The position numbers were made by a program, and so were the translations under genes. A model generated the notes under the pieces. The model made no database searches. It was given only the letters and a program-made list of their open reading frames with translations, and was not told the DNA's origin. Positions 5,289 through 35,840 of a stretch of 64,000 bases of DNA are shown in pieces (the stretch's first letter is position 1; each line of letters begins with the position of its first letter). The stretch is from Gemmatimonadaceae bacterium (lineage in GTDB: Bacteria; Gemmatimonadota; Gemmatimonadetes; Gemmatimonadales; Gemmatimonadaceae): NCBI GenBank assembly GCA_037721215.1, contig JBBJNV010000009.1, forward strand, positions 62,001-126,000, written 5' to 3'.

Positions 5289-6314
5289 CTACAGTAAATC
5301 AGGGTTGCGGCCACGAAGGCGCGGCAGCGTCGACACCGCCTGGCGAAAGCGGTCGCTTTCCACGTCCCTCCTGCGCAGCCGGCGGCGCATCATGTCCGTG
5401 ATCATCACCAGGAGCGACAACGCGACAAAGCTGGCAACCGCGGCGATGATGGTCTTGACGATGACGCGCTTCCGCACCTTTGGGAGCTTGCCAGGCAGCG
5501 GATCATGCACAATGACGGTCGGCGTGGCTTCCAGTTCTCTCGCAAACGCGGCATCGCGTTCTATCGTCGCCTGTGTGAACGACTGCTCCGCAAACCGGAT
5601 CTCGCGCATGATGCGCTCCCGCTCCACGCCGGCAATCGAGAATGACGGCGTCGCGCGATTACCGAAGTTGAACTCCCGCAGCCGGTTTTCGGCGGCTGCC
5701 AGCTGTGAGCCGGCATTGGCGACGCGTGCCTCCTGCGCCAAGCGCAGCTGCTGGGCCTGCGCGCGGGAGGTCTCAACGAAAATCTGGCTGGCGGTGTCGA
5801 CGACACGTGCGGCGATCATCCTTGCAAGCGCGCTATCGCGGTGGGACACTGCGAGGGTGATCGTGCCGGTTTCCTTGTTTGAGCCGACCGTCATCAATCT
5901 GTTGATTCGCTTCTGAACATCTTCGTCATCATTCACCACGTATCGCTCGTCGAGCATTCGGTCGACAAGGCGTTGATCCGATCCGGGTTTTACTGGCGAG
6001 AAACCCACGCGGGCAAGCACTTTTCGCGACTTCAGCAGTTCCACCATCCTTGCTGGAGTGAGCTGATATCCTGTATTCAACGTCGCCCCCGCAAGCGCGG
6101 CAATTCCACCAAGCGCGGGTGAGGACCTGTTGTTCATTACCGGTGTCAGTGATAGCTCAGCCTTGTACTTGCGGGGCATCGCGAAGGCCCACCCTCCCAC
6201 GACGGCTGATATGAGGAAAACGCCCAGCACGATCTGACGCCGCTTCTCGATCAGCGGCGTGAGCAGTGTCAGTGCGTCTACTCCCTCCTCCACGTAAGTC
6301 TCTCTCAGTTGCAC
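5289..6314 (-). CDS. Wzz/GNVR chain-length determinant-like inner-membrane protein
   Basis: Polysaccharide co-polymerase of the Wzz family, expected to sit in the inner membrane and set glycan chain length with the Wzy polymerase encoded just upstream. The first membrane helix is IVLGVFLISAVVGGWAFAM near the N-terminus; a long helical periplasmic stretch with LREFNFGNRATPSFSI follows; the second helix is VIVKTIIAAVASFVALSLLVMI near the C-terminus. It ends in a short basic cytoplasmic tail with no kinase domain. I chose the GTG at 6314 (341 residues) because the longer reading frame would run back over the upstream gene; the GTG lies 8 bp after that gene's stop. Confidence 0.82.
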   Translation of the reverse strand: MQLRETYVEEGVDALTLLTPLIEKRRQIVLGVFLISAVVGGWAFAMPRKYKAELSLTPVMNNRSSPALGGIAALAGATLNTGYQLTPARMVELLKSRKVLARVGFSPVKPGSDQRLVDRMLDERYVVNDDEDVQKRINRLMTVGSNKETGTITLAVSHRDSALARMIAARVVDTASQIFVETSRAQAQQLRLAQEARVANAGSQLAAAENRLREFNFGNRATPSFSIAGVERERIMREIRFAEQSFTQATIERDAAFARELEATPTVIVHDPLPGKLPKVRKRVIVKTIIAAVASFVALSLLVMITDMMRRRLRRRDVESDRFRQAVSTLPRLRGRNPDLL

Positions 6315-6321
6315 CGCCAAA

Positions 6322-7626
6322 TTATATCCCTGGGGACAATGCGTTTTGCCGGCTGCCTCGCCAGGCTCTGATGAACCAGCCAAGCAAGCCGATTGCAAGC
6401 ACAGTAGCAGTCAAGCTGTTGTATATCCAGAACCAGGTGATTGGAGACCACAAGACGGTAAGGTAGGTCCCGATCAACAACGGCACCGCGCTCCAGTTTC
6501 CGGCGGCCACAAGGCGGAAGCCCGTTCCTCCAACAAAGCCGACCAGCGCCAGAACGAGCAGCGCCCCGGGGATGCTGAAGTCCTGAATCAGCGGCCTGAA
6601 CGCAGTGTAGATGTTGCTCGATTCCCCCACGATAAGATCGATGGCATTCGAAAAAATTCCCGGAATGCGCTGTTGATATCCCAGCATCTCCAGGGGCCCG
6701 GCAAATGTCACTTTCCCGAAGCTGGGGTCAAGGGGCTGTGACGTGTACTCGGCCAGCCACTGCGAAAACACCGTCATGTGCCCGAAGGCCGCCGTGACCA
6801 GCTTCACGAGCACGATGTTGAGCAGGGCAACGTCGGTCGATGCCATTCGCGCCAGGCCTATCGCAAAAAAGAACGCTGTAACGACTGACGTGAGGGCGGC
6901 TGCGACAAGAAGGTGAGGCCATGTAAAAACGGACAACCGGCCGAAGCGAAGCCGTGCGGAGAAATACCCTGCAAGCCACAGCGACAGACTGAAGAGAACG
7001 GCCGCCTTGGTGGTCTGTAGGATGGTGACGATGATGGCCGGTACGAACGAAAAAAGGCAAAGTGTCTTCCATAAGCGCTCGTTTCGCAGGATGAAGAGCG
7101 TTCCGCCAACGGCCGGTGCCAGATAGACGAACGGGAGCAGCGCCTGGCTTATCGCGGGCGGTGATGGTGCTCCCGTTTCGGCGTAGCGTGCAACGTACAG
7201 CTGATTCGACACGACAACGAGCCGCTCTAGGTTCAATACCTCCGTCAGCGGGATGCCAGAGCCGGTGAGATACACGATGTTCGATATTGTGCCAAATACG
7301 ATCGATACAACGAGGACCGCTCCAAACATCCGGAGCTCGCGGTCCGTCGCTGGCTGGTATCGCACGAGCATGCGGGTACGAAGACCACCGTTTCCGGCAA
7401 TACCGCCCAGGCTAACGGCGACGCTGGCCGCCATCAGCCAGACGATTGCGTTGGGGCCCACCGGTTCATTTGGCGCAAGTATCAGCGGAGCAATGCCGGC
7501 GAAGCACCACCACAGGGGAAAGAAAGCCGCAGGCTGCAGCCACGTGCCCACCGCAAGCCGCATCAGGATGGCCCAGCCAATGAGACCGGTGGAAAGAACG
7601 AGCGCCGCAGTCGTCGGACCGCTCAA
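6322..7626 (-). CDS. Wzy-like O-antigen/exopolysaccharide polymerase
   Basis: A very hydrophobic protein of 434 residues with about ten to twelve predicted membrane helices and few recognisable motifs, which is typical of Wzy polymerases that join lipid-linked repeat units in the periplasm. Its position between the dTDP-rhamnose genes and a Wzz gene supports this. The frame is open to an ATG at 7665, but that start overlaps rfbB by 43 bp. The TTG at 7626 overlaps the rfbB stop as TTGA and has GGAG about 8-12 bases upstream, so I prefer it. A periplasmic loop lies around FSQWLAEYTSQPLDPSFGKV. The polymerase function is inferred from topology and context. Confidence 0.75.
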   Translation of the reverse strand: MSGPTTAALVLSTGLIGWAILMRLAVGTWLQPAAFFPLWWCFAGIAPLILAPNEPVGPNAIVWLMAASVAVSLGGIAGNGGLRTRMLVRYQPATDRELRMFGAVLVVSIVFGTISNIVYLTGSGIPLTEVLNLERLVVVSNQLYVARYAETGAPSPPAISQALLPFVYLAPAVGGTLFILRNERLWKTLCLFSFVPAIIVTILQTTKAAVLFSLSLWLAGYFSARLRFGRLSVFTWPHLLVAAALTSVVTAFFFAIGLARMASTDVALLNIVLVKLVTAAFGHMTVFSQWLAEYTSQPLDPSFGKVTFAGPLEMLGYQQRIPGIFSNAIDLIVGESSNIYTAFRPLIQDFSIPGALLVLALVGFVGGTGFRLVAAGNWSAVPLLIGTYLTVLWSPITWFWIYNSLTATVLAIGLLGWFIRAWRGSRQNALSPGI

Positions 7627-8696
7627 AGCGGCCGCTCCAGGTGGCGTGGGTTCGCAAGATACCACCGCACTGTCTTATTGATTCCGCTCTCGAACGTCTC
7701 CTCCGCACGCCACCCCAGCTCTGATTCGATCAATCCGCAATCGATGGCGTACCGGAAGTCGTGTCCGGCCCGGTCCGTGACCGTGGTCAGCAACTCGTCG
7801 TACGTGCCGCTGCTGCGTGGTTTCAGCTCGTCCAGTATGCCGCATATCTGGCGCGCGATATCGATATTCCTGTGCTCGCTTCTGCCGCCCACGAGGTAAG
7901 TCTGACCGACTCTGCCGCGGCGAACGACGGTGTCGATTGCGCGGCAATGATCTGAAACATGGAGCCAGTCACGAACATTGAGGCCCGCGCCGTAAATGGG
8001 GATCGGCAGGCCGGCGACCGCCGATCGGATGACCGTTGGAATGAATTTCTCAGGATGCTGGTAGGGCCCGTAGTTGTTCGAACAATTTGTCACGACGCAT
8101 GGGAGCCCATACGTATGATGGTACGCCCGGACGAGATGGTCCGAGCCTGCCTTGCTCGCCGAATAAGGCGAGTTGGGTGCGTAGGGAGTTGACTCGACGA
8201 AGGGCGGGTCGGTTTCGTTCAGGCTTCCGAAAACCTCGTCGGTCGATACATGATGGAAGCGGACGGGTCTCGCACGTGAATGACCCGTCCACTCGCTTCG
8301 CGCTGCTTCGAGCAGTGTGAACGTGCCCACGATATTGGTGCCGATGAACGCGGCCGGCCCGGAGATCGATCTGTCAACGTGGGATTCGGCAGCGAAGTGC
8401 ACGATTGTGTCGATTCGACGGTCCGCGACAATCGATCGTACCATCGACGCGTCAGTGATATCACCCCGGACAAAATCGTGCCTGGGATTGGCGATGACCT
8501 CATCGAGGTTGTCGAGTGACCCTGCATACGTCAATGCATCGAGCGTCGTGACGCGTGCTTCCGCATCGGTTGCAAGCACATGTTCAACGAAGTTGGCGCC
8601 GATGAATCCGGCGCCGCCGGTGATGAGAATTGAGCGGGGCACATGCACTGCCGGTGGTGTCACCCGCGCTCCAGCGTCGAAGTCAGGCGGAGACAC
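7623..8696 (-). CDS. rfbB: dTDP-glucose 4,6-dehydratase
   Basis: Second enzyme of dTDP-L-rhamnose synthesis; it removes water from dTDP-glucose to give dTDP-4-keto-6-deoxyglucose using bound NAD. GGAGFIG at 27-33 binds NAD, STDEVFG at 151-157 supplies the Thr-Asp-Glu catalytic residues, and YSASK at 178-182 is the Tyr-Lys pair. FAAESHVDRSI is also diagnostic. The GTG at 8696 gives about 20 residues more than usual before the fold; in-frame GTGs near residues 16-18 are possible starts. It follows rfbD by 10 bp, and its stop overlaps the polymerase start. Confidence 0.96.
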   Translation of the reverse strand: MSPPDFDAGARVTPPAVHVPRSILITGGAGFIGANFVEHVLATDAEARVTTLDALTYAGSLDNLDEVIANPRHDFVRGDITDASMVRSIVADRRIDTIVHFAAESHVDRSISGPAAFIGTNIVGTFTLLEAARSEWTGHSRARPVRFHHVSTDEVFGSLNETDPPFVESTPYAPNSPYSASKAGSDHLVRAYHHTYGLPCVVTNCSNNYGPYQHPEKFIPTVIRSAVAGLPIPIYGAGLNVRDWLHVSDHCRAIDTVVRRGRVGQTYLVGGRSEHRNIDIARQICGILDELKPRSSGTYDELLTTVTDRAGHDFRYAIDCGLIESELGWRAEETFESGINKTVRWYLANPRHLERPL

Positions 8697-10115: not shown

Positions 10116-10999
10116 CGCGCGGGAGTGACTGAGCCGATCAACCCGAGGAGGTATTCACCATATGAGCTCGACCCCATAGCTGCCGCGAGACTCTGAAGAG
10201 CCTCATCGCCGATGAACCCCATTCGATGCGCGGCTTCCTCGGGCGAGCCGATCTTGAGACCCTGACGCGCTTCGACAACCGACACGAAGTTCGATGCGGC
10301 AAGAAGAGCATCGTGGGTTCCGGTATCGAGCCACGCCATTCCGCGACCGAGCGTTTCCACAGTCAGCTGGCCTCTCTCGAGATAGTGTCGGTTGAGATCC
10401 GTAATCTCCAGTTCTCCGCGGATTGAGGGCGCCAGCTCTTTCGCCCTTCCCACGACGGTGTCGTCGTAGAAATAGAGGCCTACGACTGCATACGATGACG
10501 CCGGGCGCGCGGGCTTTTCCTCGATGCTCCGGGCCCGCCCGTATTCGTCGAAGTCGACAACTCCGTACCGCTCGGGATCCTTCACGTGGTATGCGAATAT
10601 TGTCGCGCCCTCGCCTTTCAGCGCGGCGCGCTGAAGTTGTTCAGGCAAGCCCTGCCCGAAAAAAAGATTGTCACCGAGAATCAGTGCAGACGATTCATCG
10701 CCTATAAAATCGGCACCGATGATGAACGCTTGCGCCAGGCCGTCGGGACGCGGCTGAACTGCGTAGCCGAGCTCGACGCCGAGGTGTGTTCCATCTCCCA
10801 GAAGCTCCTGGAAGCGAGGTGTATCCGACGGCGTGCTGATGATCAGGATCTCGCGGATGCCGGCCAGCATCAGGGTGGTGAGTGGATAATAGATCATCGG
10901 CTTGTCGTAAACCGGGATGAGCTGCTTGCACACGACCCGCGTCGATGGCCATAAGCGAGTACCGGCCCCACCCGCCAGAATTATCCCTTTGCGACTCAT
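10112..10999 (-). CDS. rfbA: Glucose-1-phosphate thymidylyltransferase
   Basis: First enzyme of the dTDP-rhamnose pathway, making dTDP-glucose from dTTP and glucose-1-phosphate. The 295 residues begin with the nucleotidyltransferase signature [48 protein letters not shown] and EEKPARPAS are all typical of RmlA. Full length. It overlaps the flippase gene upstream and rfbC downstream by 4 bp. RmlA enzymes are commonly feedback-inhibited by dTDP-rhamnose (known of the family). Confidence 0.97.
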
Positions 11000-12267
11000 G
11001 CCGTCACCGCGAGTGGCCGATCAGGCGCTGCCCTGAGGCGGGCGTATGTCTCGCGGACAGTCAGGACGCCCAGCAGCGAGAGGGAGGCGACAAGGCTCCC
11101 CGACATCCACATGATCGTCGGACGGAAGAAACACAGCATAAGCAGCACACCCAGTGTGATCATCAGGTTGCGGCTGTTGAGCGCACGGACGTCGAGGGCA
11201 TCGAGAATGTTTCTCAGCAGAACGTAGACGACATACGGAATTGCAGCAAGGAGGCAGACACGAAAGACGGGAACGGCTGGCATGAACGCCGGTCCAAAAT
11301 ACCATTGAATCAGCGGCGGTATGACAAGTTCACCAGCCAGCACCCCAACAGTGGCGACAAGAGTGCCCGCGAAAAGGATTCGTGCAGTCATCCGCCGGAC
11401 TGCCGTAAGATCGCCGGTTGCTGCCTGCGCACTTGCCCGCGGGAGCAAAATCAAACCGACTGGTGTGAACGCACCAGAGATAATCGTGACCAGCGACATC
11501 GCTGCCGAGAAATGTCCGGCTGCCACCAGCCCTTCGGTCCGGAGCGCAATAAGAGCCGGGATGGCGAACAATCCAATCAGCGCGAACTCCCCTGGAACCC
11601 GCGGAATTCCAAATCGCAGCAGCAGGATGGCGTGCTTACCGAGACCCGCCTCGCCGGCATGCTCGCGTCGCAGTCGAAACGACAGGGCAAAAAGCGCAAC
11701 CGAGCTGACTGTGATCCAGCCAATGCCGGTTGCCTGAATCACTGCCGCCGCTTCCGAATCGACGACAGCGAAGGCGACCAGGGGAACGATCCCGAGGCTC
11801 GCCAGCTGCATGGTGTTGGCAAGACCCATTTCCAGTCGGCCCCGGAACACGGCGTACACCATGCTATGGAGCGAAATGCCGAGAATCGCAAGCGACACCG
11901 GCTGCACAAGGTGCCTCAACATCGTACTCCCGAACAGCAAGGCCGATGCGGAGGAGGGGCTCAGCGTGAGCAGAATTGCAACAATGACCGGGGGAATCAG
12001 CCCGGCGATCAGTGCAGCGGCCGCGAACGAGCGCTCCGAATGCCCACTCAGTGCACCAGTTCTGGCGATTGCCAGATACCGCGGTGCCGCGATTCCCAGG
12101 CCCATGACGAGCGGAAGGTAGAGCAGTCCAATCGCGCGGCGGCTCAGCGCATATTCCCCGAACCCGCCAGGCCCGAGCAAGTTCGCTGCAAGCTTGAGCA
12201 ACAGAACTCCCGAGACCATGACCACCAGCTCCGCCGCCATCGTCCACGCGAGCTGGACGCGCATCAA
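10996..12267 (-). CDS. Wzx-like polysaccharide flippase (MOP/MATE superfamily)
   Basis: A 423-residue membrane protein with about 12 predicted helices that would flip undecaprenyl-linked repeat units across the inner membrane. The N-terminal [20 protein letters not shown] is the typical start of the polysaccharide-synthesis MOP group (helix followed by a GxxxFGxYA-like turn). It is the first gene of the leftward operon with the rhamnose genes and the Wzy polymerase. A second flippase lies at 19,058, so either two glycans are made or the substrates differ. Which one serves this locus's main polymer cannot be told from sequence. Confidence 0.85.
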
Positions 12268-19057: not shown

Positions 19058-20593
19058 TTGACGCCTAGCGTGGCGGGCGCAACTTCGCAGAGAGTTGCGC
19101 GAAACAGCGCGCTCTATTTCTCATCGCTCGCACTTCCCGCCGCAGCGGCAGTTTTTCTGGTACCGGTGACAATCCGGGCACTTGGTGCCTCCAGGTTCGG
19201 ACTCCTGGCGCTGGCATGGGCGGTAGCGGAGGGGAGCGGAATGTTCGACTTCGGACTGGGACGCGCAACTGTCCGGTTCGTGGCTGACGCGACGGAAAGA
19301 AGCCGAGACCGGCTAAGGGAAGTAGTGTTTGGGTCCCTCTTGTTTCAGGCTGCGGCCGGGCTGGTCGCGGGATTACTGCTTTTTTTCCTTGCTCCAATTC
19401 TCGTAACCCGCGTATTCACGATTCTTCCGGCGGCCATACCCGAAGCGACCGCCATGTTCCGGGTGCTCGCCTTTCATCTTCCCGTTCTCCTCGCGGCGGC
19501 TGCCTTGCGAGCGGCTCTGGAGGGTGCTCAGCGCTTCGACCTCAGTGCCGTGTTGCGCATTCCGAGCGGACTTGCTTCAGTGGGTGTTCCGGCCTTTGTT
19601 GCCTCTGCAGGATATTCCCTGTCCGTCATTCTGTGGTGGCTGCTCGCCGTTCGTGTTACGCTGCTGCTGATCAGCGCGACCGCCGTAAGCAGGTCGCTGC
19701 TGCGAGGGCGGTGGGGCCTTCCCGCAGGATTTGAAACGCTGCGTGAGATGCTCGGATATTCCGGATGGGTCGCCATTTCTACCGCGCTCGGGCCTCTGCT
19801 TGGGAGCTTCGACAGATTCGTCGTGGGGTCGGCGGTGGGCGTGACCGCTCTCGGGTACTACACGGGCGCTGCTGAGGCGGCGAATCGCTTTCTGCTCATC
19901 CCCGTAACGGTTTTCAGCGCGTTACTGCCTGCACTTGCGGCGACCGATGCGAGCGGGTCGCGGGCGCGCGCACTGGCTGTGACCCGTGCCTCCCGACGAC
20001 AAATGGCCGCGCTGCTGTTTCCGCCGTGTCTGCTGTTGTTTGCCTTTGCTCCCGCCGTGCTCGAAACCTGGCTCGGCTCGGAGTTCGCGGTTGCGGCGGG
20101 TGACGCTCTCCGCATCCTCGCGGCAGGAGTGTTCCTGAACGGGCTGGCGCATCTGCCGCTTGCTCTGCTGTATGGATCGAACCGGCCCGATCTTCCCGCA
20201 AAGATTCATCTGGCCGAGATTGTCATTCATCTGCCGCTGACAATAGGTCTCGTGCGTGCATTCGGGATAACCGGAGCAGCTCTGGCGTGGACAATCAGAT
20301 GCGTAACCGACCTTGTGTTATACGAATTGGTCAGCCGGCGGACGCTCGGACGCTGCGAAGCGGATACCGCGGAACGTGCGCGCACCGTGCGGTTACTGTG
20401 GACGGTTGCAGGGCTCTCAGCCGCACTTGCCTGCGCCGTCCGACTCGCGGGTGCATCGCTGCCGGCGGCACTCACGCTGATGGTGATTGGTCTAATGTCA
20501 TACACTGCACTTTCGTGGATGACAGTTTTGAGCGGTGAAGAGCGGAGAGCGTGGCTGGGCACGTTGTCGCGGACTCGCGCGGGCGGGGTCTAG
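19058..20593 (+). CDS. Second Wzx-like flippase (MOP superfamily)
   Basis: A 511-residue membrane protein with about 14 helices. SALYFSSLALPAAAAVFLVPVTIRALGASRFGLLALAWAV is the usual N-terminal region of polysaccharide flippases, and the next segment GMFDFGLGRATVRFVAD fits. It would export a lipid-linked glycan unit. It is longer than the flippase at 10,996 and not obviously a close copy. The start is TTG at 19058, or GTG four codons later; neither has a good Shine-Dalgarno sequence. The next gene begins 3 bp after its stop. Confidence 0.85.
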   Translation: MTPSVAGATSQRVARNSALYFSSLALPAAAAVFLVPVTIRALGASRFGLLALAWAVAEGSGMFDFGLGRATVRFVADATERSRDRLREVVFGSLLFQAAAGLVAGLLLFFLAPILVTRVFTILPAAIPEATAMFRVLAFHLPVLLAAAALRAALEGAQRFDLSAVLRIPSGLASVGVPAFVASAGYSLSVILWWLLAVRVTLLLISATAVSRSLLRGRWGLPAGFETLREMLGYSGWVAISTALGPLLGSFDRFVVGSAVGVTALGYYTGAAEAANRFLLIPVTVFSALLPALAATDASGSRARALAVTRASRRQMAALLFPPCLLLFAFAPAVLETWLGSEFAVAAGDALRILAAGVFLNGLAHLPLALLYGSNRPDLPAKIHLAEIVIHLPLTIGLVRAFGITGAALAWTIRCVTDLVLYELVSRRTLGRCEADTAERARTVRLLWTVAGLSAALACAVRLAGASLPAALTLMVIGLMSYTALSWMTVLSGEERRAWLGTLSRTRAGGV

Positions 20594-23425: not shown

Positions 23426-25162
23426 ATGAAGCTTGTTTCCAGAGTCGCGGCATGCGCGGGGATTTTCGTTGCGTGTTTCAGCGCAGCTTCGCACGCTGGA
23501 GCCCAGAGCGTGGCAGACACCGCCCGGGATTCCGTGAGTGTCGCCGCCGCCGCCCGCCCGACCGACTCCGCCACCAAGATACAACTGCCCTCGCTCACCC
23601 TTGTGACAGCTCACGAAGTCGATCGGATGCGAGCCGATCAGCTTGTAAAGGGCGTGGCGCCGGGTCAGTCGCTGCTATTGCGGTCGGCGTCTTCGCTGGC
23701 GACCCCGCCAGCGCTGGGCAATCGATGGTTTGCGGGCGAGCTCATCTATCCCCAACTCCTGTTGGTACGAAATTCAGGCCTGCCATTCTCGCAGAACAAC
23801 AGCTCGCTCTGGGCCGGGCGCGGAATCAGCAGGCGAGCGTTGCTCGGTTTCAGGCTGGAGGCACCACACGTCAGCCTTGTCTTTGCTCCACAAATTATCG
23901 CATCCGACAATTCCTACTGGCTGCTCAGGCATGACTACTTCCAGCCCACCGTCCCCCTCAGATACCTCGGACGCGGTTACACGTTTCCGTACTACTTCTA
24001 CACTTTCCCAATCGACCAGCCGCTGAGCTTCGGAAGTCGCCCCATACGGAGTTTCGACATGGGTGAGTCGACGCTACTGTTGCACGCGGGTGGCGTTCAG
24101 CTGGGAGTTTCGAATGAGAACCAGTGGTGGGGGCCGGGAATCCGAAATGCCATGCTCCTGAGCAACAATGCGCCGGGATTTCCTCACATCTTTCTGCGCA
24201 CCGGGCGTCCCATCAGCACGCCGGCAGGTGGCCTGGAGTTTCGCTGGCTCGCGGGCGCGCTCACCGAGTCGCGATACTTCGACACGGTGTCTACAAATGA
24301 CATTCGCTCCCTAGCCTCGATTGGTGCGACTCTGCAGTCGCGCTGGGATCCCAATCTGACGATCGGCTTTGCCCGGTCTGTCTACGCGGCGGCGAGAAAT
24401 TGGGAACTGATCCCTGGTCGCCTTGGCGATGTCTTCAAAACCGCGAGCAGGCCCAATCCGGACGTTCTTGCTGATATACTGACTGATGAGCCGGTGGAAG
24501 AAGGTGGGAGGGACCAGCTGTTCTCCCTTTTTGCCCGGTGGGTGTTTCCACGTAACGGCGCCGAGGTCTATGGCGAGTGGGGGCGGACGCGGCCAGCGAC
24601 AGGGTTAGCGGATTTCCTGAAGACTCCAAATCACACGCAGGGGTACACGATCGGAATGCAGTGGCGGGGAGATGCGTGGGGCGGCGGAAACGTTCGCGGG
24701 CAGGCAGAAATCACGCAGCTCGAGCAGAGCGCCACGTTCCGCGACCGTCCCGTCGGTTCGTGGTACACGAGCAACCGCGTGCTTCAGGGATACACCAATC
24801 GCGGACACATCATTGGAGCATCAATCGGTCCAGGCGCCTCGAGTCAGTTTGTCGCGCTTGACTACATGAAATCATTTTGGCAACTCGGCGCCTTCGCTGG
24901 ACGAATCCGGTGGAACGAAGATGTGCACAGCACATTCGGATTTCCGGACTATGTTTCGTACTGCAACCATGACATAAGCGTTTATCCGGGAGTGCGGGCC
25001 GCACTGTTCGGCGGATTCGGCTCGATGACAGCGGAGCTTACCCTCCAGAACCGGCTGAACGTACTGTTTCAGAACAAAGGCGGGTGTCCGAACAACGGTG
25101 AGCGCCTCGACCTCAGGACTATCTCACTGAAGATCGGAATGACGGCGTTCCGTTACCGTTAG
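23426..25162 (+). CDS. Capsule assembly Wzi-family outer-membrane protein (copy 1)
   Basis: A 578-residue protein with a signal peptide ending near SHAGAQ, then a long beta-rich region. The segments NENQWWGPGIRNAMLLSNNAPGFPHIFLRTGRPI and FARWVFPRNGAEVYGEWGR are shared with the protein at 25,196 and are typical of Wzi, the outer-membrane barrel lectin that anchors capsule to the cell surface. The aromatic-rich strand pattern and C-terminal basic/aromatic end (KIGMTAFRYR) fit a barrel. It follows the lipase-like gene by 13 bp and converges with the second Wzi gene. Confidence 0.85.
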   Translation: MKLVSRVAACAGIFVACFSAASHAGAQSVADTARDSVSVAAAARPTDSATKIQLPSLTLVTAHEVDRMRADQLVKGVAPGQSLLLRSASSLATPPALGNRWFAGELIYPQLLLVRNSGLPFSQNNSSLWAGRGISRRALLGFRLEAPHVSLVFAPQIIASDNSYWLLRHDYFQPTVPLRYLGRGYTFPYYFYTFPIDQPLSFGSRPIRSFDMGESTLLLHAGGVQLGVSNENQWWGPGIRNAMLLSNNAPGFPHIFLRTGRPISTPAGGLEFRWLAGALTESRYFDTVSTNDIRSLASIGATLQSRWDPNLTIGFARSVYAAARNWELIPGRLGDVFKTASRPNPDVLADILTDEPVEEGGRDQLFSLFARWVFPRNGAEVYGEWGRTRPATGLADFLKTPNHTQGYTIGMQWRGDAWGGGNVRGQAEITQLEQSATFRDRPVGSWYTSNRVLQGYTNRGHIIGASIGPGASSQFVALDYMKSFWQLGAFAGRIRWNEDVHSTFGFPDYVSYCNHDISVYPGVRAALFGGFGSMTAELTLQNRLNVLFQNKGGCPNNGERLDLRTISLKIGMTAFRYR

Positions 25163-25195: not shown

Positions 25196-26899
25196 CTACC
25201 AGCGGCGAACGCGCGCCATGAGCTGGACGCTCAGGTTTGCGACATCGTCAGTGAAGTTTCGGTTGTAATTCTGCATCGCCTCGACCTTCACGCCAAAGTC
25301 CGCATACCGCGTGAACTGCATCCGTTCCAGGCCAAGCGCGACGATAACGTCTGTTTCCTTGTTCGCAGAGGCCGTAAATCCGGGCGGCAATGGATTGTAG
25401 CCGCCGTTGGTCTTGATAGCGTCCAGGTAGTCTCCCGCCTGATCCCTGACGATGCGCCGGAGAGTCAGTCCAGTGCGACCTATCGGCGAATAGCGCATCC
25501 ATGACAGAGTGGATGCCGCCGCCGCGCCCACCCCGGGACTGGCCCCCAGGAGCTGGCCGCGATTCGTATGGCCTTGCCGCAGCGGCGAGTGAAGGTAAAC
25601 GGCGTTCTCGATACGAAGCCGCGCGAGCGTTGGAATCTGATAGTTGACCAGCTCACCCTTGATGACGTCGATCCGGTTCGACCTGCCTAGAAATGTTTTC
25701 TGAAAACCGAGCATGTATTCGCGCTCGTGATCGATGTCCTGAATGAATTCGCGGAGATCGTAAAACTGATCTTCATATCCGCGCTCTCCGTACACCTCAA
25801 ATCCACTCTGGGGAAACGTCCACCGAAAGAAGAGCGACGCCAGCTGATTATCGAAACCCGCGCTGTCGCCCTCGGCGAACTCATTCTTCAAAAACAGCAC
25901 CTTGAACGGCTTCGACCAAAACTTGCCGCTCGGCTCCCCGTTTTCGAACGGCACATGAAAATACCGGGAAACACCGACTTCGAGGCCGGGAAAGCCGCGA
26001 GGAAGAACCAGAAAAGTCGCCGCAGTCGTCAGTCGCTCCGTGCCGGTCTCGCCTGTGGTAAAACGGGTGCCTCCAGTAACAGGGCCGAACTCTGACTGGT
26101 AGAGCTTTCCCCACATCACCCGCGCATGAATCTTCGCGATCCACAGATCGATTGGAGAACCACTGCCGACGAAGAGATGCGGAAATCCCGGCGCATTGGT
26201 GCCAAGAAGGAACGGATGCTCGGTGGCCGGACCAATCCACTGATTCCCCGTCCCGAATCCGACCGTCGCATACTTCGAGTCGAGCCGAATCCCCGAGTTG
26301 CCGAGGTCGACCCGCGAGTATGCGCCGGCTCCGAACCGGAGTGGCATGTCCACGAGGTCGGTAAAAGTGCTGCGGTTGAATGACTGTGGCCCCGTCTTTC
26401 CGTTTGGCAGGACCGGGAAGGGCGAGTTGCCGGCGCGAAACACAACCGGAGCCAGCGTGAATGAGAGAGGCCCGTATCGTCCTGAAACTGCCGCGGAAGC
26501 GGCGACCGTCAACCCGCGGCCGATCCAGACTGCGCCATCGTTGGCGCCGTAAGGATATGCAGAGTTGAAATTGGACGTCAGGGTGGCAGGACCTGCATCG
26601 AACCGCGAAGCAGTGAAGCGATTCTTCAAAGCCCAGGGGCCAGCAGTATCGGATGCGACCAAAGTGTTCAATTCCCGTGGCGAAAAGCCCCGAATAGACC
26701 ACGGGTAGTGCGGAGCCACTCCGGCAACCTGAAGAACCCTGAGATAATCCTCAAACTCACTTCCGGTTGCCAAATCGCCTATTGAAGCGCTGCGCGGTTG
26801 GGCGTTCGCTTCAAACGGATTCGCGCAAAGGATTGCCGAAAGCGCCAACGCAGGAATCAAAGCCAGCCGACGCGGCGGGTACATCGGTCGTACTGTCAT
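25196..26899 (-). CDS. Capsule assembly Wzi-family outer-membrane protein (copy 2)
   Basis: About 567 residues from the ATG at 26899. The frame stays open to 27001, but that would run into the upstream gene and lack a signal peptide. MTVRPMYPPRRLALIPALALSAILCANPFEANAQ is a good signal sequence; an ATG five codons later is an alternative. GTGNQWIGPATEHPFLLGTNAPGFPHLFVGSG and FFRWTFPQSGFEVYGERG match copy 1. The barrel should sit in the outer membrane and bind exported polysaccharide. It is the distal gene of the block containing Wza and the Wzz proteins. Confidence 0.85.
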   Translation of the reverse strand: MTVRPMYPPRRLALIPALALSAILCANPFEANAQPRSASIGDLATGSEFEDYLRVLQVAGVAPHYPWSIRGFSPRELNTLVASDTAGPWALKNRFTASRFDAGPATLTSNFNSAYPYGANDGAVWIGRGLTVAASAAVSGRYGPLSFTLAPVVFRAGNSPFPVLPNGKTGPQSFNRSTFTDLVDMPLRFGAGAYSRVDLGNSGIRLDSKYATVGFGTGNQWIGPATEHPFLLGTNAPGFPHLFVGSGSPIDLWIAKIHARVMWGKLYQSEFGPVTGGTRFTTGETGTERLTTAATFLVLPRGFPGLEVGVSRYFHVPFENGEPSGKFWSKPFKVLFLKNEFAEGDSAGFDNQLASLFFRWTFPQSGFEVYGERGYEDQFYDLREFIQDIDHEREYMLGFQKTFLGRSNRIDVIKGELVNYQIPTLARLRIENAVYLHSPLRQGHTNRGQLLGASPGVGAAAASTLSWMRYSPIGRTGLTLRRIVRDQAGDYLDAIKTNGGYNPLPPGFTASANKETDVIVALGLERMQFTRYADFGVKVEAMQNYNRNFTDDVANLSVQLMARVRRW

Positions 26900-26969
26900 C
26901 GTTGAACATTGGGTTTGATGTTTTCTTCGCAGAGTTCGGAATCTTAACACTCCGCTCAGCCCGTTGTAG

Positions 26970-29402
26970 TTACGCCAGCTGCAAGCCGTCACGCGCACCA
27001 TGCACTCGCTTTGTGGCCATTCGGGCCATTGGCAACCGCTGAGCGACCGTCACGGCCGCACCAGCAAGCCAGAAGAAAATCCACCCCAGGGTTATGGAGT
27101 TGAAGACGACCGCCGTGACGCCGTTGATCGCGATGCCGACAACCGACAGCCACATTGCAAGTCCCATTCTTTGCTGGGCCAGGCTCTCGCCCTGCCGATA
27201 GAGACGCATCGCCGACCCACCGATTGCACCGAGCACGAGCAGGAGCAGGCTCAGGCCCAGCACGCCCATTTCGACGCCGTATTTGAGGTAGAGGTTGTCG
27301 CCCGTCAGATGCTTGAGGCCCGCGCGTACAGCCGTCTGATCCGCGGTGCCAAGGCCCGAGCCCCATGGGTTTTCGGCGAGCACCGCCAGCCCTTTCGTCC
27401 AGTCGGTAACATGCGATATGCTGCTTCCTTCCTGCCACGAAAGCGTGTGCCAGACGAAGGTGGGGAACCCGGGGATGCTGACGAAAGCGGCTGCGAATAC
27501 CACCGATGCGAGTGCCACCCCGGCAACGGCCCACTCGGGTCGCCTGATGAGGCATACGAACAGAACGAGCTGGATCAAGGCAACCAGAATCGTCATGCGG
27601 GTGAGCGTCAGCACCAGGCCTGTCACTACTACTGCATAGGCAGCAGTCAGCAGCCGCGTTCGGCTCTCGCGCAAAAACACCCATGCGGTTGCCAGTGGGA
27701 AGAAGAGGATGAAAGGAACCGCGAAACCCTGCCCGCTTAGATATACAGAGCCGGCTCTGCGAAAGAGATTGCCGCCTATCATCGTCCAGTAGTTGAGCGG
27801 CAGGCCATAATCGTTGCCGACCGTGAACGCGGAAACCCCGAGAAAGTTCTGGAAATACGAAGCGACACCGAGCGCAACGAGCATTTCAGGTGTCACAACA
27901 ATTCTTTCCAGGACACCGATGCCGCATGTCAGAACGATGAGGATAAACAGACTTCGCATCGCTCTGTCATCGGACACGAGTTCCGGCATCGCGCGACCCA
28001 CAAAGTAGGCGATCATGAAATAGACAGAATCGCGGATACCCAGAAACTCGGCGCCGGCCGGCAGATTGAAGCCCAGCCACAGATTTTCCACTAGAAGAAA
28101 CAGGGCGGCAGTCGTCATGAGTCCGCCAATCCACAGATCGGGCCAGGCAATCGCTGCCCGACCTCCGCGACCAGTCATGGCGCGCACCATTATAATCACC
28201 AATAGTACCGCGAGGCCGGCCTCCTTCCACGCAGCAATCGTTCTGACAGTGTTCTCCGGAAGTCCGAACCAGCCGAACAGCACCGTGATGATAAGGCTGT
28301 GAAACGCGAGTCCCCAGGCGAACAGAGGGAAGGCGACGCGGGCAGGGAACGACCGCGCGTCGGCGACGCCAGGAGAGCCCGACGCCTGCAACCAGGAAGA
28401 GCCAGGATTCTCACGTCGTTGTCCAGTCGCAAAAACTGCGACGCCCGCAGCCGCCACCGCGAGAACCCCACCGACAACGAGCGCATTCAACATCAGCAAC
28501 CAGTAATGCGGCCATACCGCGCGGCGGGGCGGCACCGCCCCGTCTATCACTGTGATTGCGCCCGCATTGTCCGCTTCGTCGATGCGAGCCGCGTCAAGTT
28601 GGCGTTGAAGCGAAATGCCCAGCAACGTCGCAGCGCTGCCGGCCCTCTGGAGCTGAGATTCCTCGAACACCAGCCGCGGCGAGTTTTCCCATTGCCGGTT
28701 GCGCTCGCGAAACTCACGCATCGCCTCACCGGACCGAGCCAGCGCAGCGTCAGCCTCGCGGACGCGCTGCTCGAGGAACAGGCGCCTGGATCGCTCACGC
28801 GACCCACGCTGCTCCTCGCCGAACACCTGCACCAGACTGACTGTGCGATTTGCGATCGCCGCTGAAACCTCCGGCCAGCGGGACTCAACCCTCAGCTCGA
28901 CAAGGTTGGATTCACCATTCACATTTGGCGACATCGCTTTACCAAGCTTCCTGAGCGCAATTTCCTCCGCGCGCCTCGGATCGTCCGCCTTTACCTGATA
29001 AATCTCGAGAAGTGAGGCGCTGTCGCCCTCTTGCGCACTGCGGGGGTCAGAAAATCTGGCCTGCAGCAGGCGCCGCCGCACTTCCACGCTCTCGATGAGC
29101 TGCACATAAAATTCGGGCGGCGGCATTGGTTCGGCTGCGGCCATTGTGAGCGACTGTGTCGTAGAAGCGGCGCCTCCCAGGGTAGCGGAAATCGCTGACG
29201 CGATATCCGTTTCGCTCCGTGCCGCAGTTATGAATGACGCGTGAGCCCGGTAGACCGGCGGCCGTAATAGTACGACGGTCGCGGCGACGAGCAGCGTCGC
29301 GCCCATCACTTTCAGCATCAGCCGCCGCCGCGAAGCGATGCCGACCACCCACATACTGAAGGTCAGTGGCGACGGGTGGGGCAGTTCCGGCATTGGAGCC
29401 AT
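26970..29402 (-). CDS. Fusion of a Wzz chain-length domain with an O-antigen ligase/polymerase domain
   Basis: An 810-residue inner-membrane protein with two parts. Residues 1-325 are a complete Wzz-type unit: helix 1 at about 28-47 (LMLKVMGATLLVAATVVLL), a helical periplasmic region, PPRR at 291-294 before helix 2 at about 298-325. Residues 355-790 form a ten-or-so-helix Wzy_C/WaaL-like domain with LTLTRMTILVALIQL at about 598-612, ENPWGSGLGTADQ at 677-689 and GDNLYLKYGVEMGVLG at 701-716, the conserved periplasmic-loop region of ligases and polymerases. The Wzz part is paralogous to the next gene upstream (same FYVQL, AQWPE-type and AARIDE blocks). It may both measure and transfer or extend the chain (inference). 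No kinase domain. Confidence 0.88.
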   Translation of the reverse strand: MAPMPELPHPSPLTFSMWVVGIASRRRLMLKVMGATLLVAATVVLLRPPVYRAHASFITAARSETDIASAISATLGGAASTTQSLTMAAAEPMPPPEFYVQLIESVEVRRRLLQARFSDPRSAQEGDSASLLEIYQVKADDPRRAEEIALRKLGKAMSPNVNGESNLVELRVESRWPEVSAAIANRTVSLVQVFGEEQRGSRERSRRLFLEQRVREADAALARSGEAMREFRERNRQWENSPRLVFEESQLQRAGSAATLLGISLQRQLDAARIDEADNAGAITVIDGAVPPRRAVWPHYWLLMLNALVVGGVLAVAAAGVAVFATGQRRENPGSSWLQASGSPGVADARSFPARVAFPLFAWGLAFHSLIITVLFGWFGLPENTVRTIAAWKEAGLAVLLVIIMVRAMTGRGGRAAIAWPDLWIGGLMTTAALFLLVENLWLGFNLPAGAEFLGIRDSVYFMIAYFVGRAMPELVSDDRAMRSLFILIVLTCGIGVLERIVVTPEMLVALGVASYFQNFLGVSAFTVGNDYGLPLNYWTMIGGNLFRRAGSVYLSGQGFAVPFILFFPLATAWVFLRESRTRLLTAAYAVVVTGLVLTLTRMTILVALIQLVLFVCLIRRPEWAVAGVALASVVFAAAFVSIPGFPTFVWHTLSWQEGSSISHVTDWTKGLAVLAENPWGSGLGTADQTAVRAGLKHLTGDNLYLKYGVEMGVLGLSLLLLVLGAIGGSAMRLYRQGESLAQQRMGLAMWLSVVGIAINGVTAVVFNSITLGWIFFWLAGAAVTVAQRLPMARMATKRVHGARDGLQLA

Positions 29403-30613: not shown

Positions 30614-33208
30614 TTACCTCTGCGCGATCGCGATGGCCGTTAGCAGGCTTGCGGCCAGCGCCGTCAAGCCGCTCAGCGTGGCAATGAAATCGACGCGCCG
30701 TTCGTTTTTGTCGCGCTCCGGCACATACACGCTGCTCCCCGGGCGCGGCTCGGGATTGTTCCTGAAGATGAACTTGCCCGACGTTGCCTCGACCTTTCCA
30801 TTTGGCTGCGTGACGTATGCGTACCGCAGATCCCCTCCCCGCGTGATACCACCTGCTGCTCGAACATAGTAATCCAGGTCTGCGCCCGGCCGGTACGTGA
30901 CCGCCACCGGCGAGTTCACTGCTCCCTTGACGCTCACTACGGCGTTGAAACGCGGAATGAAAATGGAGTCGCCGTCTACGAGCTGCAGATTGTCGCGCGA
31001 CCTGTCAGCGCGGAGAATTTCCGGAAGTGCAATCCCGATGCGCCCCACGCTGTCGCGCCTGCGAAAAAACGTGACCCCGTCCGCATATGCCTCGGGCGTG
31101 AGCCCGCCAGCGCGCCGGATGATATCCATCACCTTCTCGGTTTTCGTGCGAAGTGTGTATTCACCTGGGAAACGCACCTCTCCGGCGATCGTAACGCGTC
31201 GTTGCAATTCCCAGTTCGGCTGCCTGAGAATAAGCACGTTGTCGTAGGGACGAAGTGCCACTTCAGGTGACCCGCCGGCCGCTGCGGGAAGTCCGGGAGG
31301 CCCGAAATACTGGCCATTCGGCCCGATCTCGAAGATGTAACTCGAGTCGAGTGGCACTCGGAAGGTCGTTGCCGTGGCCCCCGCACGGCGATCCAGCGGC
31401 AACCGGGCGATCTCGGCTTCACGAAGATCCGCGCTCTGCTCGAGTCCTCCAGCCAGCAACACCAGATCGCGGACTGTCATCCCGTCCCGAAACGGCACCT
31501 GCCCGCTGGTGCGCACTGCGCCAGTGATTCCGACGAATCGCGTAGGCCGGAATTCGGTAACGGAGAATACGCGAATCTGATCGTCTTCCCTCAGCACGAA
31601 ATCTCCGATTACTCGCCCTGTCGTATCGGCAAGCGTCGCGTGCAGCTGAACCCTGGTCGAGTCGGAATTGAGCCGGGAAACCAGGACCTTGCCAAGATAG
31701 GAATCGGGTTTGAGTCCCCCGGCGGCGCGGAGTGCCTGCGACACGTTCATGCCGGCAGTCAGTCCGAGATTGCCTGGCTGCCATACGTTGCCTTCGACAG
31801 AGATGCGGTTGCGGATGCGTTCGGTAACCGGGAACACGCGGATAATGTCCCCCGCCAGCAACGGCACGTCAGAAGGGCTTCCCTCGGCCAGACTTACCGG
31901 GGAGATGTCGATGGTTACCCGGTCCCGCCCGCCTTCTCCGCGAGTAGCCGGGGCCTGGATACGCTCGATCTGCACCCGACGCCGAGAAGCATTCGGCGTG
32001 AAGCCGCCCGCGAATCGAATCGCGTCGGAGAGCGTCTCTCCCTGCTGAATTTCGTATGTAGCCGGCCGTGTGACCTCTCCCACGATTCGAACCCGCGGGG
32101 CGTGCACCGGGACGAGAATGACGTCTCCAGTTAGCAGCCGGACGTCGTGCGATGCGTCGCCGTTGATCAGATAGTCGTACACATCGAGAACGTCTACGGT
32201 TCTGCCTGCCCGCTTGATCTGGATGTTGCGCAGTGTGCCGTTGTCGGAAGGTCCCGCCGCCGCGAACAGCGCTGTGAGCGCGGTCCCCGCACTCGACACG
32301 CGAAAGCTCCCCGGCCTTATCACATCGCCCACCACATAGATCTGATTGCTGCGAAGTCGCACCGGGCTCACGGAAAAGCGGGTCGTGGCACCCCGGCCCC
32401 GCCTTACTCCGGAATACACGCGGCCGAGCCGGTCATAGAGGATACTCTCAAAATTGCCAAGCGTGATGTTGTTGACAAACACCTGTCCCACTTCGGGTAT
32501 CACCACGAACCCTTCACGCGTAACGTCCAGCTCGTAGGAAGCTGAAACGTCGCCAGTGAGGATCAGTGCCAGCCGGTCGCCAGGTCCAAGGCGATAATTT
32601 GCGTCAACCGGCCCGCTGAGATTCGGATCAGCCAGTGAGCTGGATCGGCGAAACGCGTCGAGACCAAAAATCACAAAGCCGCTGTCACGGTCGGCGCGGG
32701 TCGTGTTGTCCTTGAAGCCGGCGAGTCGTGCCTCGCATTGCTGGCGAAGCAACCGCTTGTTGGCGAGCGCCTTGGCAGCGCCGATTCCAATGGTATCAGC
32801 AGGATTGAGTGTCGCGTCATCCGTAAGCGCGTCGACGCTGCACCGAAGTGACGCGAGATCGGCGGTGTCGGTGATTGCGAGGGAGCGGAGCGCGTCAAAG
32901 ACCTGCTGACGAGGCGCTGCGCCGGGCGCTGCGCCGGGCGCGGAAAGCTCTCCTCCAGCCTGATCGCCGCCAAGAAGGTACGCATCGAGAATTGATTCCG
33001 GGTACCCCTCGGCGCGGAGCCGGGCCCGAACCTGATCGGGTGTCAAACCGCTCGAGAGAATTCGGGAGCGCAGTTCGCGGAGCAACGCAGGATTCGACTC
33101 AAGCATTGCCTGCGCCTGTGCCGGTGATGGATTCTGAGCACCGGCAACCACAGGTACAAGGCAGAGAATTGCGGCAGCGGCAAGCGACCGCAGTCTTGAT
33201 GGATTCAT
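30614..33208 (-). CDS. wza: Wza-type polysaccharide export protein with six SLBB domains
   Basis: An 864-residue export channel, much longer than E. coli Wza (about 380 residues). Signal peptide 1-24 (cleaved after AGA), no lipobox cysteine. Residues 25-200 are a low-similarity helical extension with an APGAAPGAAP linker. The polysaccharide-export domain is about 203-285 (YRLGPGDRLALILTGDV). SLBB repeats begin near 288, 372, 468, 557, 671 and 757, each with a G-x-V-x-x-P-G-like core. A terminal hydrophobic helix is at 842-862. It would form the periplasmic-outer-membrane conduit for the polymer. First of three genes with two Wzz proteins. Confidence 0.93.
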   Translation of the reverse strand: MNPSRLRSLAAAAILCLVPVVAGAQNPSPAQAQAMLESNPALLRELRSRILSSGLTPDQVRARLRAEGYPESILDAYLLGGDQAGGELSAPGAAPGAAPRQQVFDALRSLAITDTADLASLRCSVDALTDDATLNPADTIGIGAAKALANKRLLRQQCEARLAGFKDNTTRADRDSGFVIFGLDAFRRSSSLADPNLSGPVDANYRLGPGDRLALILTGDVSASYELDVTREGFVVIPEVGQVFVNNITLGNFESILYDRLGRVYSGVRRGRGATTRFSVSPVRLRSNQIYVVGDVIRPGSFRVSSAGTALTALFAAAGPSDNGTLRNIQIKRAGRTVDVLDVYDYLINGDASHDVRLLTGDVILVPVHAPRVRIVGEVTRPATYEIQQGETLSDAIRFAGGFTPNASRRRVQIERIQAPATRGEGGRDRVTIDISPVSLAEGSPSDVPLLAGDIIRVFPVTERIRNRISVEGNVWQPGNLGLTAGMNVSQALRAAGGLKPDSYLGKVLVSRLNSDSTRVQLHATLADTTGRVIGDFVLREDDQIRVFSVTEFRPTRFVGITGAVRTSGQVPFRDGMTVRDLVLLAGGLEQSADLREAEIARLPLDRRAGATATTFRVPLDSSYIFEIGPNGQYFGPPGLPAAAGGSPEVALRPYDNVLILRQPNWELQRRVTIAGEVRFPGEYTLRTKTEKVMDIIRRAGGLTPEAYADGVTFFRRRDSVGRIGIALPEILRADRSRDNLQLVDGDSIFIPRFNAVVSVKGAVNSPVAVTYRPGADLDYYVRAAGGITRGGDLRYAYVTQPNGKVEATSGKFIFRNNPEPRPGSSVYVPERDKNERRVDFIATLSGLTALAASLLTAIAIAQR
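32916..32943 (-). repeat. 12-bp tandem repeat in wza
   Basis: Two and a third copies of gcgctgcgccgg, encoding the APGAAPGAAP linker near residues 91-100 of the export protein. The copy number is a multiple of three bases, so slippage would change linker length and not frame. Confidence 0.7.
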
Positions 33209-34301: not shown

Positions 34302-35840
34302 TCAGTCAAATCTCACGAGCCACCTGGGCACCCATGTCACTCTGGCACGCCCTTCAAAGACATTGATGTCGTAGCCGGCCATGTTAGCCCGGTTCGTGCT
34401 TTGATTCACACCGGCGTCCGCGGTTATCTGCCAGTCGCGGAACAGGATCGCTGCTCCCGACAAGCCGATCCGGTTGGTGGTCCATACGACTCCCGACAGA
34501 ATACCCGGTGTTCCTTCGAACGATGACGGTACCGGGTAAGCGTCGCGGTAGTCGCCCTGTCCCTGCCGCCTCCGGGCGACGTAAAGCCGAAGCGGCGCTC
34601 CCCGGACGATTGCCAGGTCCGACCCCAGCCGCACCTCGTCGTAATCGCTGTATCCGCGACCGAGCCCCACGCCGCGGATTGCGTATCTCTCGGCGATGTT
34701 GGGAGTGCGATAAGCCAGGTTCGAGACTCTCGTGTACGACGCGAAAATTCGGTGCTCGTCGAACGCCGGCAGTCCCTCCGCCGAAATTGTAAGGCCATAT
34801 GCGGAAGGTTCCCTGCACACGGTATCGCATCGATCGATCTGAATATCGTCGAGCAGAATCTGCCCACTGATGTTGCCCCTGGAGCGTGAGCGGAAGGCAG
34901 CCTCGAAACCGAACGCGAGATTCCCATCGGTCCGTTCGTTCTTCCAGCTCAGCCCGTAGACGTTCAATGGATTGAGAAGCGAGAACTCGAGCCCCCGGCC
35001 AACTCCGGAATACACGAACGACTCACTGAGCGCCGCTTCAAACCGGCCTCGATTTACCGCAAGGCGGTGTGCAGAGAGATAGCGCGATGATTCTACACCC
35101 GGGGTGAGGACGAAATTCTCCAGTTTGGCGATCACCGTGGACACGTTGAAACGCGACGTCCCCGCGCGGCCGTAAAGGTGGTCGTACGTGTAGGCGTCAT
35201 CGCCGAGGATGAGGCCTGAGAAGCGGGCTGGGCCCCACGATCGGGCGACGCGTCCGAACGTTGCCTCTCCGTATTTCCACTGGCTCCCGATGTAGGCGTC
35301 TTCGGTGCGACCCGCGATCGGGCGGTCCTGACCGCCGGTGAATTCGGGATCCGAGTTCAAACGATTGTCGAGAATCGCGCGCACTGACCCGGTAAGATGG
35401 CCGCCTCCCATCACGAAGTATCCCGCGACTGCCGGCGACAGATCATCGCCGGAATCCCCAATCATCAGCTCCCGCCGCGCAGAGGTCTGGGCGGTCGCGT
35501 AAACGTCAAATGTCGCTTTCGCCCGAAACTGGGACCGGCTGTTGGTTGCTTCACTGCTGTTTCGCAGATCATAACGACCGATTGAGGCGCGCAATGCACC
35601 GACATAGCTGGCGAGGACGCCGGTTGCATCGCGCCGGGAGCTACTGTCCAGAGCGTCCCGGACGCTGTTCACTGTGTAGGGTCTAGCGAGCACTGACAGC
35701 CCTGGCAGGAAGCCTCTCGCCAGCAGCGCATCGATGTAGCTGTAGGCAATGTCGTCGTTCGGCACGTAGGCAGAAGCCTGGCCGAACAGGCATGCCGGAA
35801 CCAACATCGCCACCGCGATAAAAGACCTTATCGAAACCAC
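34302..35840 (-). CDS. Wzi-like outer-membrane beta-barrel protein (copy 3)
   Basis: A 512-residue protein with a signal peptide ending near FGQASA, then a domain YSYIDALLARGFLPGLSVLARPYTVNSVRDAL that looks like the N-terminal helical part of capsule assembly (Wzi) proteins. The rest is beta-strand-rich with GRVARSWGPARFSGLIL, corresponding to the W-G-P segment of the other two copies, and ends in a strand with a terminal aromatic (WVPRWLVRFD), as barrel proteins need. It is more divergent than copies 1 and 2, so function in capsule attachment is an inference. Its start overlaps the DUF2279 gene by 13 bp. Confidence 0.75.
   Translation of the reverse strand: MVSIRSFIAVAMLVPACLFGQASAYVPNDDIAYSYIDALLARGFLPGLSVLARPYTVNSVRDALDSSSRRDATGVLASYVGALRASIGRYDLRNSSEATNSRSQFRAKATFDVYATAQTSARRELMIGDSGDDLSPAVAGYFVMGGGHLTGSVRAILDNRLNSDPEFTGGQDRPIAGRTEDAYIGSQWKYGEATFGRVARSWGPARFSGLILGDDAYTYDHLYGRAGTSRFNVSTVIAKLENFVLTPGVESSRYLSAHRLAVNRGRFEAALSESFVYSGVGRGLEFSLLNPLNVYGLSWKNERTDGNLAFGFEAAFRSRSRGNISGQILLDDIQIDRCDTVCREPSAYGLTISAEGLPAFDEHRIFASYTRVSNLAYRTPNIAERYAIRGVGLGRGYSDYDEVRLGSDLAIVRGAPLRLYVARRRQGQGDYRDAYPVPSSFEGTPGILSGVVWTTNRIGLSGAAILFRDWQITADAGVNQSTNRANMAGYDINVFEGRARVTWVPRWLVRFD

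Follow-up and report, generated by a model that had tools for sequence, protein, structure and literature searches.

A single-frame gene uniting a Wzz-type co-polymerase and a putative Wzy polymerase in a Gemmatimonadaceae export operon

The window analyzed here, a stretch of 64,000 nucleotides from a Gemmatimonadaceae draft genome, carries on its minus strand an operon in which a gene for an SLBB/Poly_export protein is followed by a stand-alone Wzz gene (P0002), the fused gene P0001 and a gene for a Wzi-like barrel, in that order (Table 1). P0002 begins 10 nt after the SLBB/Poly_export gene. The listed start of the Wzi-like open reading frame overlaps the end of P0001, and its real start probably lies near 26899, where a signal peptide would begin. 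Elsewhere the window holds glycosyltransferases, a Bac_transf priming enzyme and two Wzx-like flippases (10996-12267 and 19058-20593). Such a gene complement is that of a locus for a polysaccharide exported by a Wzx/Wzy-type route. A second, unfused Wzz/Wzy set lies at 5289-7665 on the minus strand, where a Wzz of 369 aa directly follows a TIGR04370-type polymerase of 447 aa, their frames overlapping.

Table 1. Positions of P0001, its parts and the neighboring operon genes within the window
Feature	Position	Strand	Basis or remark
Fused Wzz-Wzy gene P0001, 810 aa	26970..29402	-	Frame, Pfam, AlphaFold, Foldseek
Wzz/PCP unit of P0001, residues 1-334 (TM1 26-46, periplasmic coiled coil, TM2 300-331, terminal RRxNP)	28401..29402	-	
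P0001 linker, residues 335-349	28356..28400	-	In relatives this place holds the end of Wzz, its stop and the start of Wzy; low pLDDT at 332-347
P0001 Wzy half, residues 350-810, polytopic membrane enzyme, WaaL/SEDS fold	26970..28355	-	
Wzy_C (PF04932), P0001 residues 589-721	27240..27638	-	Pfam
D702, clade-specific, at the His of the H[NSQ]X9GXXG motif	27297..27299	-	Alignment
H664, clade-specific; column is Arg in 29/29 compared Wzy_C proteins	27411..27413	-	Alignment
Outer-membrane export protein, 864 aa, Poly_export + SLBB, Wza-like	30614..33208	-	Domain scan
Stand-alone Wzz P0002, 397 aa	29410..30603	-	Domain scan; stop 7 nt before the fusion ATG
Wzi-like beta-barrel (Caps_assemb_Wzi)	25196..27001	-	Pfam

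The frame of P0001 is open from the ATG at 29402 to a stop at 26970-26972; the plus-strand reading of the same interval contains many stops. The initial annotation, which had described one continuous frame joining a Wzz unit to an O-antigen ligase/polymerase domain, was thus right about the coordinates and the frame, the gene lying on the minus strand, and the observation of a single-frame Wzz and Wzy gene is confirmed. Among the domain families expected in the protein, Wzy_C was found over its cut-off in a Pfam scan (E = 6.5e-11), GNVR on residues 251-319 fell just under (E = 2.6e-5, 24.5 bits against a cut-off of 27.7) and Wzz (PF02706) was absent from the list. For P0002, GNVR passes (32.2) and Wzz is just under its cut-off (24.7 versus 25.5). 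No tyrosine kinase domain was found in the Pfam scan of P0001, and the NCBIfam Wzc match is weak and confined to co-polymerase residues 265-318. The N-terminal part of P0001 (residues 1-334) shares 37% identity with P0002 over 323 aa in an ungapped alignment, in agreement with the earlier description of a stand-alone Wzz neighbor with matching sequence.

The AlphaFold model of P0001, a monomer model computed from an alignment of 20 sequences, has a pLDDT of 80.7 and bears out the proposal that both folds sit in one chain. After TM1 (26-46) come a periplasmic coiled coil with long helices at 177-234 and 242-277 and then TM2 (300-331); confidence is low over 332-347, beyond which the C half is polytopic. 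Two TM helices flanking a periplasmic coiled coil are the PCP layout, so that the Wzz unit does appear complete, with both helices, and extends here to residue 334. A Foldseek search with the single chain returned Wzc, KpsE and WzzE (8c0e, 8bhw) for the Wzz part and WaaL (7tpg) for the C half. When the C half was folded alone, WaaL again came first (E = 4e-8), with weaker matches to the SEDS polymerases FtsW and RodA. The Wzy_C/WaaL-like character assigned earlier to the second domain therefore stands, the half spanning residues 350-810. Features expected of a Wzy are present: a polytopic C half with a predicted WaaL/SEDS fold, flippases in the window and adjacent Wzz genes. The C-terminus of Wzz and the N-terminus of Wzy are both expected to be cytoplasmic, and the helix order in the model agrees, which makes the join topologically possible.

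We then surveyed the relatives of the C half. Its clade is present in 17 of 395 sampled genomes (the source and 16 others), to which G398 from the full genus set was added, giving 17 other genomes; all 14 aligned clade members match Wzy_C. None of these 17 other Gemmatimonadota genomes carries the Wzz-Wzy fusion, so the survey for a shared architecture proposed earlier came back empty, and among the genomes examined the fused form is found only in the source. Wzz directly precedes Wzy in 12 relatives, with measured gaps of -41 to +24 nt; one of the 12 (G202) was judged from an in-frame match with one TGA. In three relatives Wzz and Wzy lie in one frame, yet the stop codon is retained. Long open frames in the genome search had suggested recurrent fusion in G010, G245 and G036, and this was rejected because direct translation shows an intergenic stop in each. 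G016, G246, G306 and G398 have Wzy without a preceding Wzz on the contig seen, and the G095 locus is interrupted by a contig end. In G016 (L036/L037) and G246 (L038/L039), Wzy lies apart from the SLBB-Wzz block, on another contig. Among 12 genomes checked, two close-type Wzz copies occur in the source (G000) alone, and every relative has at most one.

A pattern scan of 84,980 species genomes, from which records very close to the window may be excluded, placed the C-half clade in Gemmatimonadota alone. A Wzz part was absent from the other Wzy_C proteins at all 15 long-open-frame loci read among the matches listed. A search of genome contigs with P0001 as the lone query gave no match, and plasmids and viral contigs gave none. 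Wzz plus Wzy_C architectures may sit unremarked in InterPro. We found no natural Wzz-Wzy fusion in the literature searched, an open collection of 5.4 million papers that omits most subscription titles.

In the window, two convergent Wzi-like barrels lie end to end (23426-25162, plus strand, and 25196-27001, minus strand), and a third, weak candidate lies nearby (34302-35840, minus strand; E = 1.8e-4, under cut-off). In G202 (L052:2559-6908; also L118, JAJTHG010000065.1), a one-frame protein of 1450 aa matches two tandem Wzi-like barrels, another fusion in a similar type of locus.

To trace the origin of P0001 we aligned it to its relatives (alignment A3, in which three relatives were read through the stop codon purely as alignment anchors). 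Compared with them, the fusion is missing sequence equivalent to several tens of residues, covering the end of Wzz, its stop and the beginning of Wzy. Since the Wzy half is separate, and usually right after Wzz, in the 17 relatives, the fusion swapped the Wzz tail, stop and start for a linker of about 15 residues. An adjacent Wzz-Wzy pair would thus have been joined by an in-frame deletion of these elements. In phylogenetic trees, the fused Wzz clusters with the Wzy-partner Wzz of G136, G010, G276, G245 and G113 (support 89/84 in the large tree and 86/85 in the small one), and P0002 clusters with the SLBB-linked Wzz of G016, G246, G397 and G306 (100/99). Forcing the fused Wzz and P0002 to be sisters costs 30 log-likelihood units (p-AU 0.0004). 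The initial annotation had favored duplication of the neighboring gene followed by fusion; a recent duplication of P0002 as the source of the fused Wzz is rejected by this AU test. The Wzy half and its counterpart in G136, a genome with Wzz and Wzy as separate adjacent genes, form a sister pair (100/100). G136 as the exact sister of the fused Wzz has modest support (96/72, 68/55), the fused Wzz lying on a long branch. The SLBB protein is closest to those of G246 (77%) and G016 (73%). P0002 and the SLBB protein thus point to one set of relatives and the fused Wzz to another, so that the locus resembles a mosaic in which an SLBB-Wzz block and a Wzz-Wzy pair are of different types and the pair was later fused.

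The two halves of P0001 differ in evolutionary tempo. Of 57 residues that are invariant in all other members, 12 are lost in the fused Wzz (45/57 kept), against 0-4 in any other member, and P0002 retains 57 of 58 invariant residues. The branch of the fused Wzz measures 0.92-1.32 versus mostly 0.15-0.5 for the others; the branch of the Wzy half, at 0.46 against 0.41 for its sister, is of ordinary length. Changes in the fused Wzz nevertheless follow conservation, with rates of 0.21 at invariant, 0.45 at intermediate and 0.75 at variable columns, and across its 323 aa we looked for and did not find gaps, stops or odd codon-position GC. The fused Wzz is therefore accelerated yet still constrained.

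The only measured complex of this kind has WzyE inside a WzzE octamer, with TM2 turned inward, at a ratio of about 8:1 (PMC10030265). In the cavity described by that study there is a single Wzy, and its authors regard the proposal of a scaffold for many Wzy as invalidated by their data. The ratio comes from a PCP-1 system and may not transfer to the GNVR-type Wzz found here, whose matches to Wzc and KpsE are no weaker than that to WzzE. A literal one-to-one working unit, as the initial annotation had imagined, is thus unlikely, given the measured ratio and the position of Wzy within the ring. A 2025 review still describes the stoichiometric interplay of the pathway as awaiting description (PMC12004945). 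Based on the 8:1 ratio, we propose that the fusion acts as one polymerase-bearing seat in a P0002 ring. About seven of the eight subunits of the membrane ring would be P0002, and the fusion would fill one position through its own Wzz part. Exactly one polymerase would thus be delivered to the central cavity, beside the inward-facing TM2 that tethers it. Length control would fall mainly to P0002, with the fused Wzz serving chiefly as a permanent seat, a role that would relax the constraint on it. The free Wzz next door and the fast evolution of the fused Wzz both suggest such a mixed ring with one seat. The acceleration is what the seat model predicts, and it would also be expected from decay or a new specificity. 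The 37% identity between the two Wzz is low for co-assembly, which argues against a mixed ring. We infer the mixed ring, the division of labor and the polymerase activity, and we give about even chances to the whole account of a true Wzz-Wzy fusion, a deletion origin and a mixed ring with a single polymerase seat. That P0001 would be a covalent Wzz-Wzy polymerase requiring a second, free Wzz in a mixed ring, the linkage fixing the polymerase number per ring, we put forward more tentatively, as a possible reading.

Other arrangements of the same proteins have to be weighed. The fusion might assemble by itself into a ring in which every Wzz subunit brings its own polymerase, the polymerases lying around or partly in it, and P0002 would then serve another polymer or step. 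The predicted PCP fold and the invariant residues that the fused Wzz retains are compatible with this, and P0002 may belong with the SLBB protein, as its kin (G016, G246, G397 and G306) sit beside SLBB with Wzy elsewhere or unseen nearby. However, the measured ratio, the one-Wzy cavity and the declared invalidity of a many-Wzy scaffold (PMC10030265) speak against it, eight fused polymerases could not fit the one cavity described, and the acceleration confined to the fused Wzz would go unexplained; we consider a fusion-only ring rather unlikely. Slightly less probable in our judgment is that the Wzz half is a redundant leftover, drifting and in frame by chance, with the Wzy half working in a P0002 ring as in the relatives. 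Such drift would account for a long branch and a loss of invariant residues confined to the Wzz half beside an intact, conserved P0002, but changes are far rarer at conserved than at variable columns, and the 323-aa stretch is ungapped and stop-free with normal codon-position GC.

The fusion is known from one draft genome and the genes are separate in all relatives, so that assembly or sequencing might have dropped roughly 100-200 nt between two genes. Against this, the Wzz RRxNP is in frame at the junction and Wzy homology starts about 15 codons downstream in the same frame. Because homology is in frame on both sides, a single miscalled base cannot explain P0001, and a frameshift or miscalled stop is ruled out. 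The locus is also internal to a 131.5-kb contig, away from its edge, in a 97% complete genome of 45 contigs, and we regard an artefact as most improbable. The frame could instead yield two proteins, through internal initiation or cleavage in the linker, and function as in the relatives. The linker is of low confidence in the model and probably disordered, and a TTG at residue 338, its sole candidate internal start, could begin the Wzy half. No clear ribosome-binding site was found before this TTG, however, and ATG and GTG are absent from the linker, which makes two products very unlikely. It is somewhat less improbable, although still quite unlikely, that the C half acts as a ligase of the WaaL or PglL type, coupling length measurement to the transfer of a finished chain. 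The best solved-structure match is WaaL 7tpg, Pfam names the domain 'O-antigen ligase' and P0001 is the only protein of the genome over the Wzy_C cut-off. The solved structures matched include no Wzy, however, so the WaaL match cannot discriminate ligase from polymerase, and the operon is of the capsule/exopolysaccharide export type (SLBB, Wzi).

The active site offers a further argument against a ligase. We compared the 14 clade members with 29 other Wzy_C proteins of the phylum, which were picked by score and motif and hence lean to the canonical form. Among the 30 best Wzy_C loci in the phylum, 29 have His at the motif H[NSQ]X9GXX[GTYS], where 14/14 clade members have Asp (D702); H664 and D702 occur in all 14, against Arg and His in 29/29 others. 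The clade also carries Asn to Gln (Q558) beside the Arg to His change. R602, a candidate equivalent of WaaL R215, is invariant in the clade and the comparison group. The entire Gemmatimonadota Wzy clade thus has an active-site variant in which WaaL-type Arg/His is His/Asp and Asn is Gln (27297-27413, residues 664-702; alignment A1). R288 and H338 are functionally important in E. coli WaaL and are conserved in PglL as R298 and H349 (PMC3643930). By motif, H664 and D702 appear to correspond to R288 and H338. Their clade-wide replacement makes a polymerase likelier than a ligase, and the earlier label of 'ligase/polymerase' can be narrowed accordingly: a membrane enzyme of this family it is, and the C half is likelier a Wzy with its own active-site variant than a WaaL/PglL-type ligase.

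Altogether, P0001 represents a variant within the known Wzz/Wzy framework rather than a separate system, seen in one genome: a genuine fusion of a Wzz-type co-polymerase to its inferred Wzy polymerase within an export operon. The WzzE-WzyE pair of enterobacterial common antigen (PDB 8c0e; PMC10030265) consists of the same kinds of protein, and WzzE is a Foldseek match to the Wzz half, but there the two are separate, at about 8:1, whereas P0001 combines them in a single chain and is accompanied by an additional free Wzz. Wzc (PCP-2a), among the top fold matches of the Wzz half, is likewise a co-polymerase with a second domain after TM2; its attached domain is a cytoplasmic tyrosine kinase, in contrast to the membrane enzyme of P0001. 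The C half has the same fold as WaaL (PDB 7tpg) and PglL and falls into the same Pfam family; P0001 departs from them by His/Asp in place of the critical Arg/His, the fused Wzz and the export-type operon. The Wzy_C proteins encoded in Gemmatimonadota MAGs (e.g., QHUA01000164.1, 58% identity) belong to the same His/Asp clade and usually lie beside a Wzz gene, and they are unfused in the 17 other genomes.

The numbers and membrane arrangement of Wzz and Wzy are still under debate, and a natural fusion beside a free Wzz offers a natural test, as the combination implies either a mixed ring or several polymerases per ring. As Wzy is hard to purify, the fusion is also a ready-made construct toward a Wzz-Wzy structure. 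Independently of this, the His/Asp swap of the clade is a starting point for telling polymerase from ligase chemistry.
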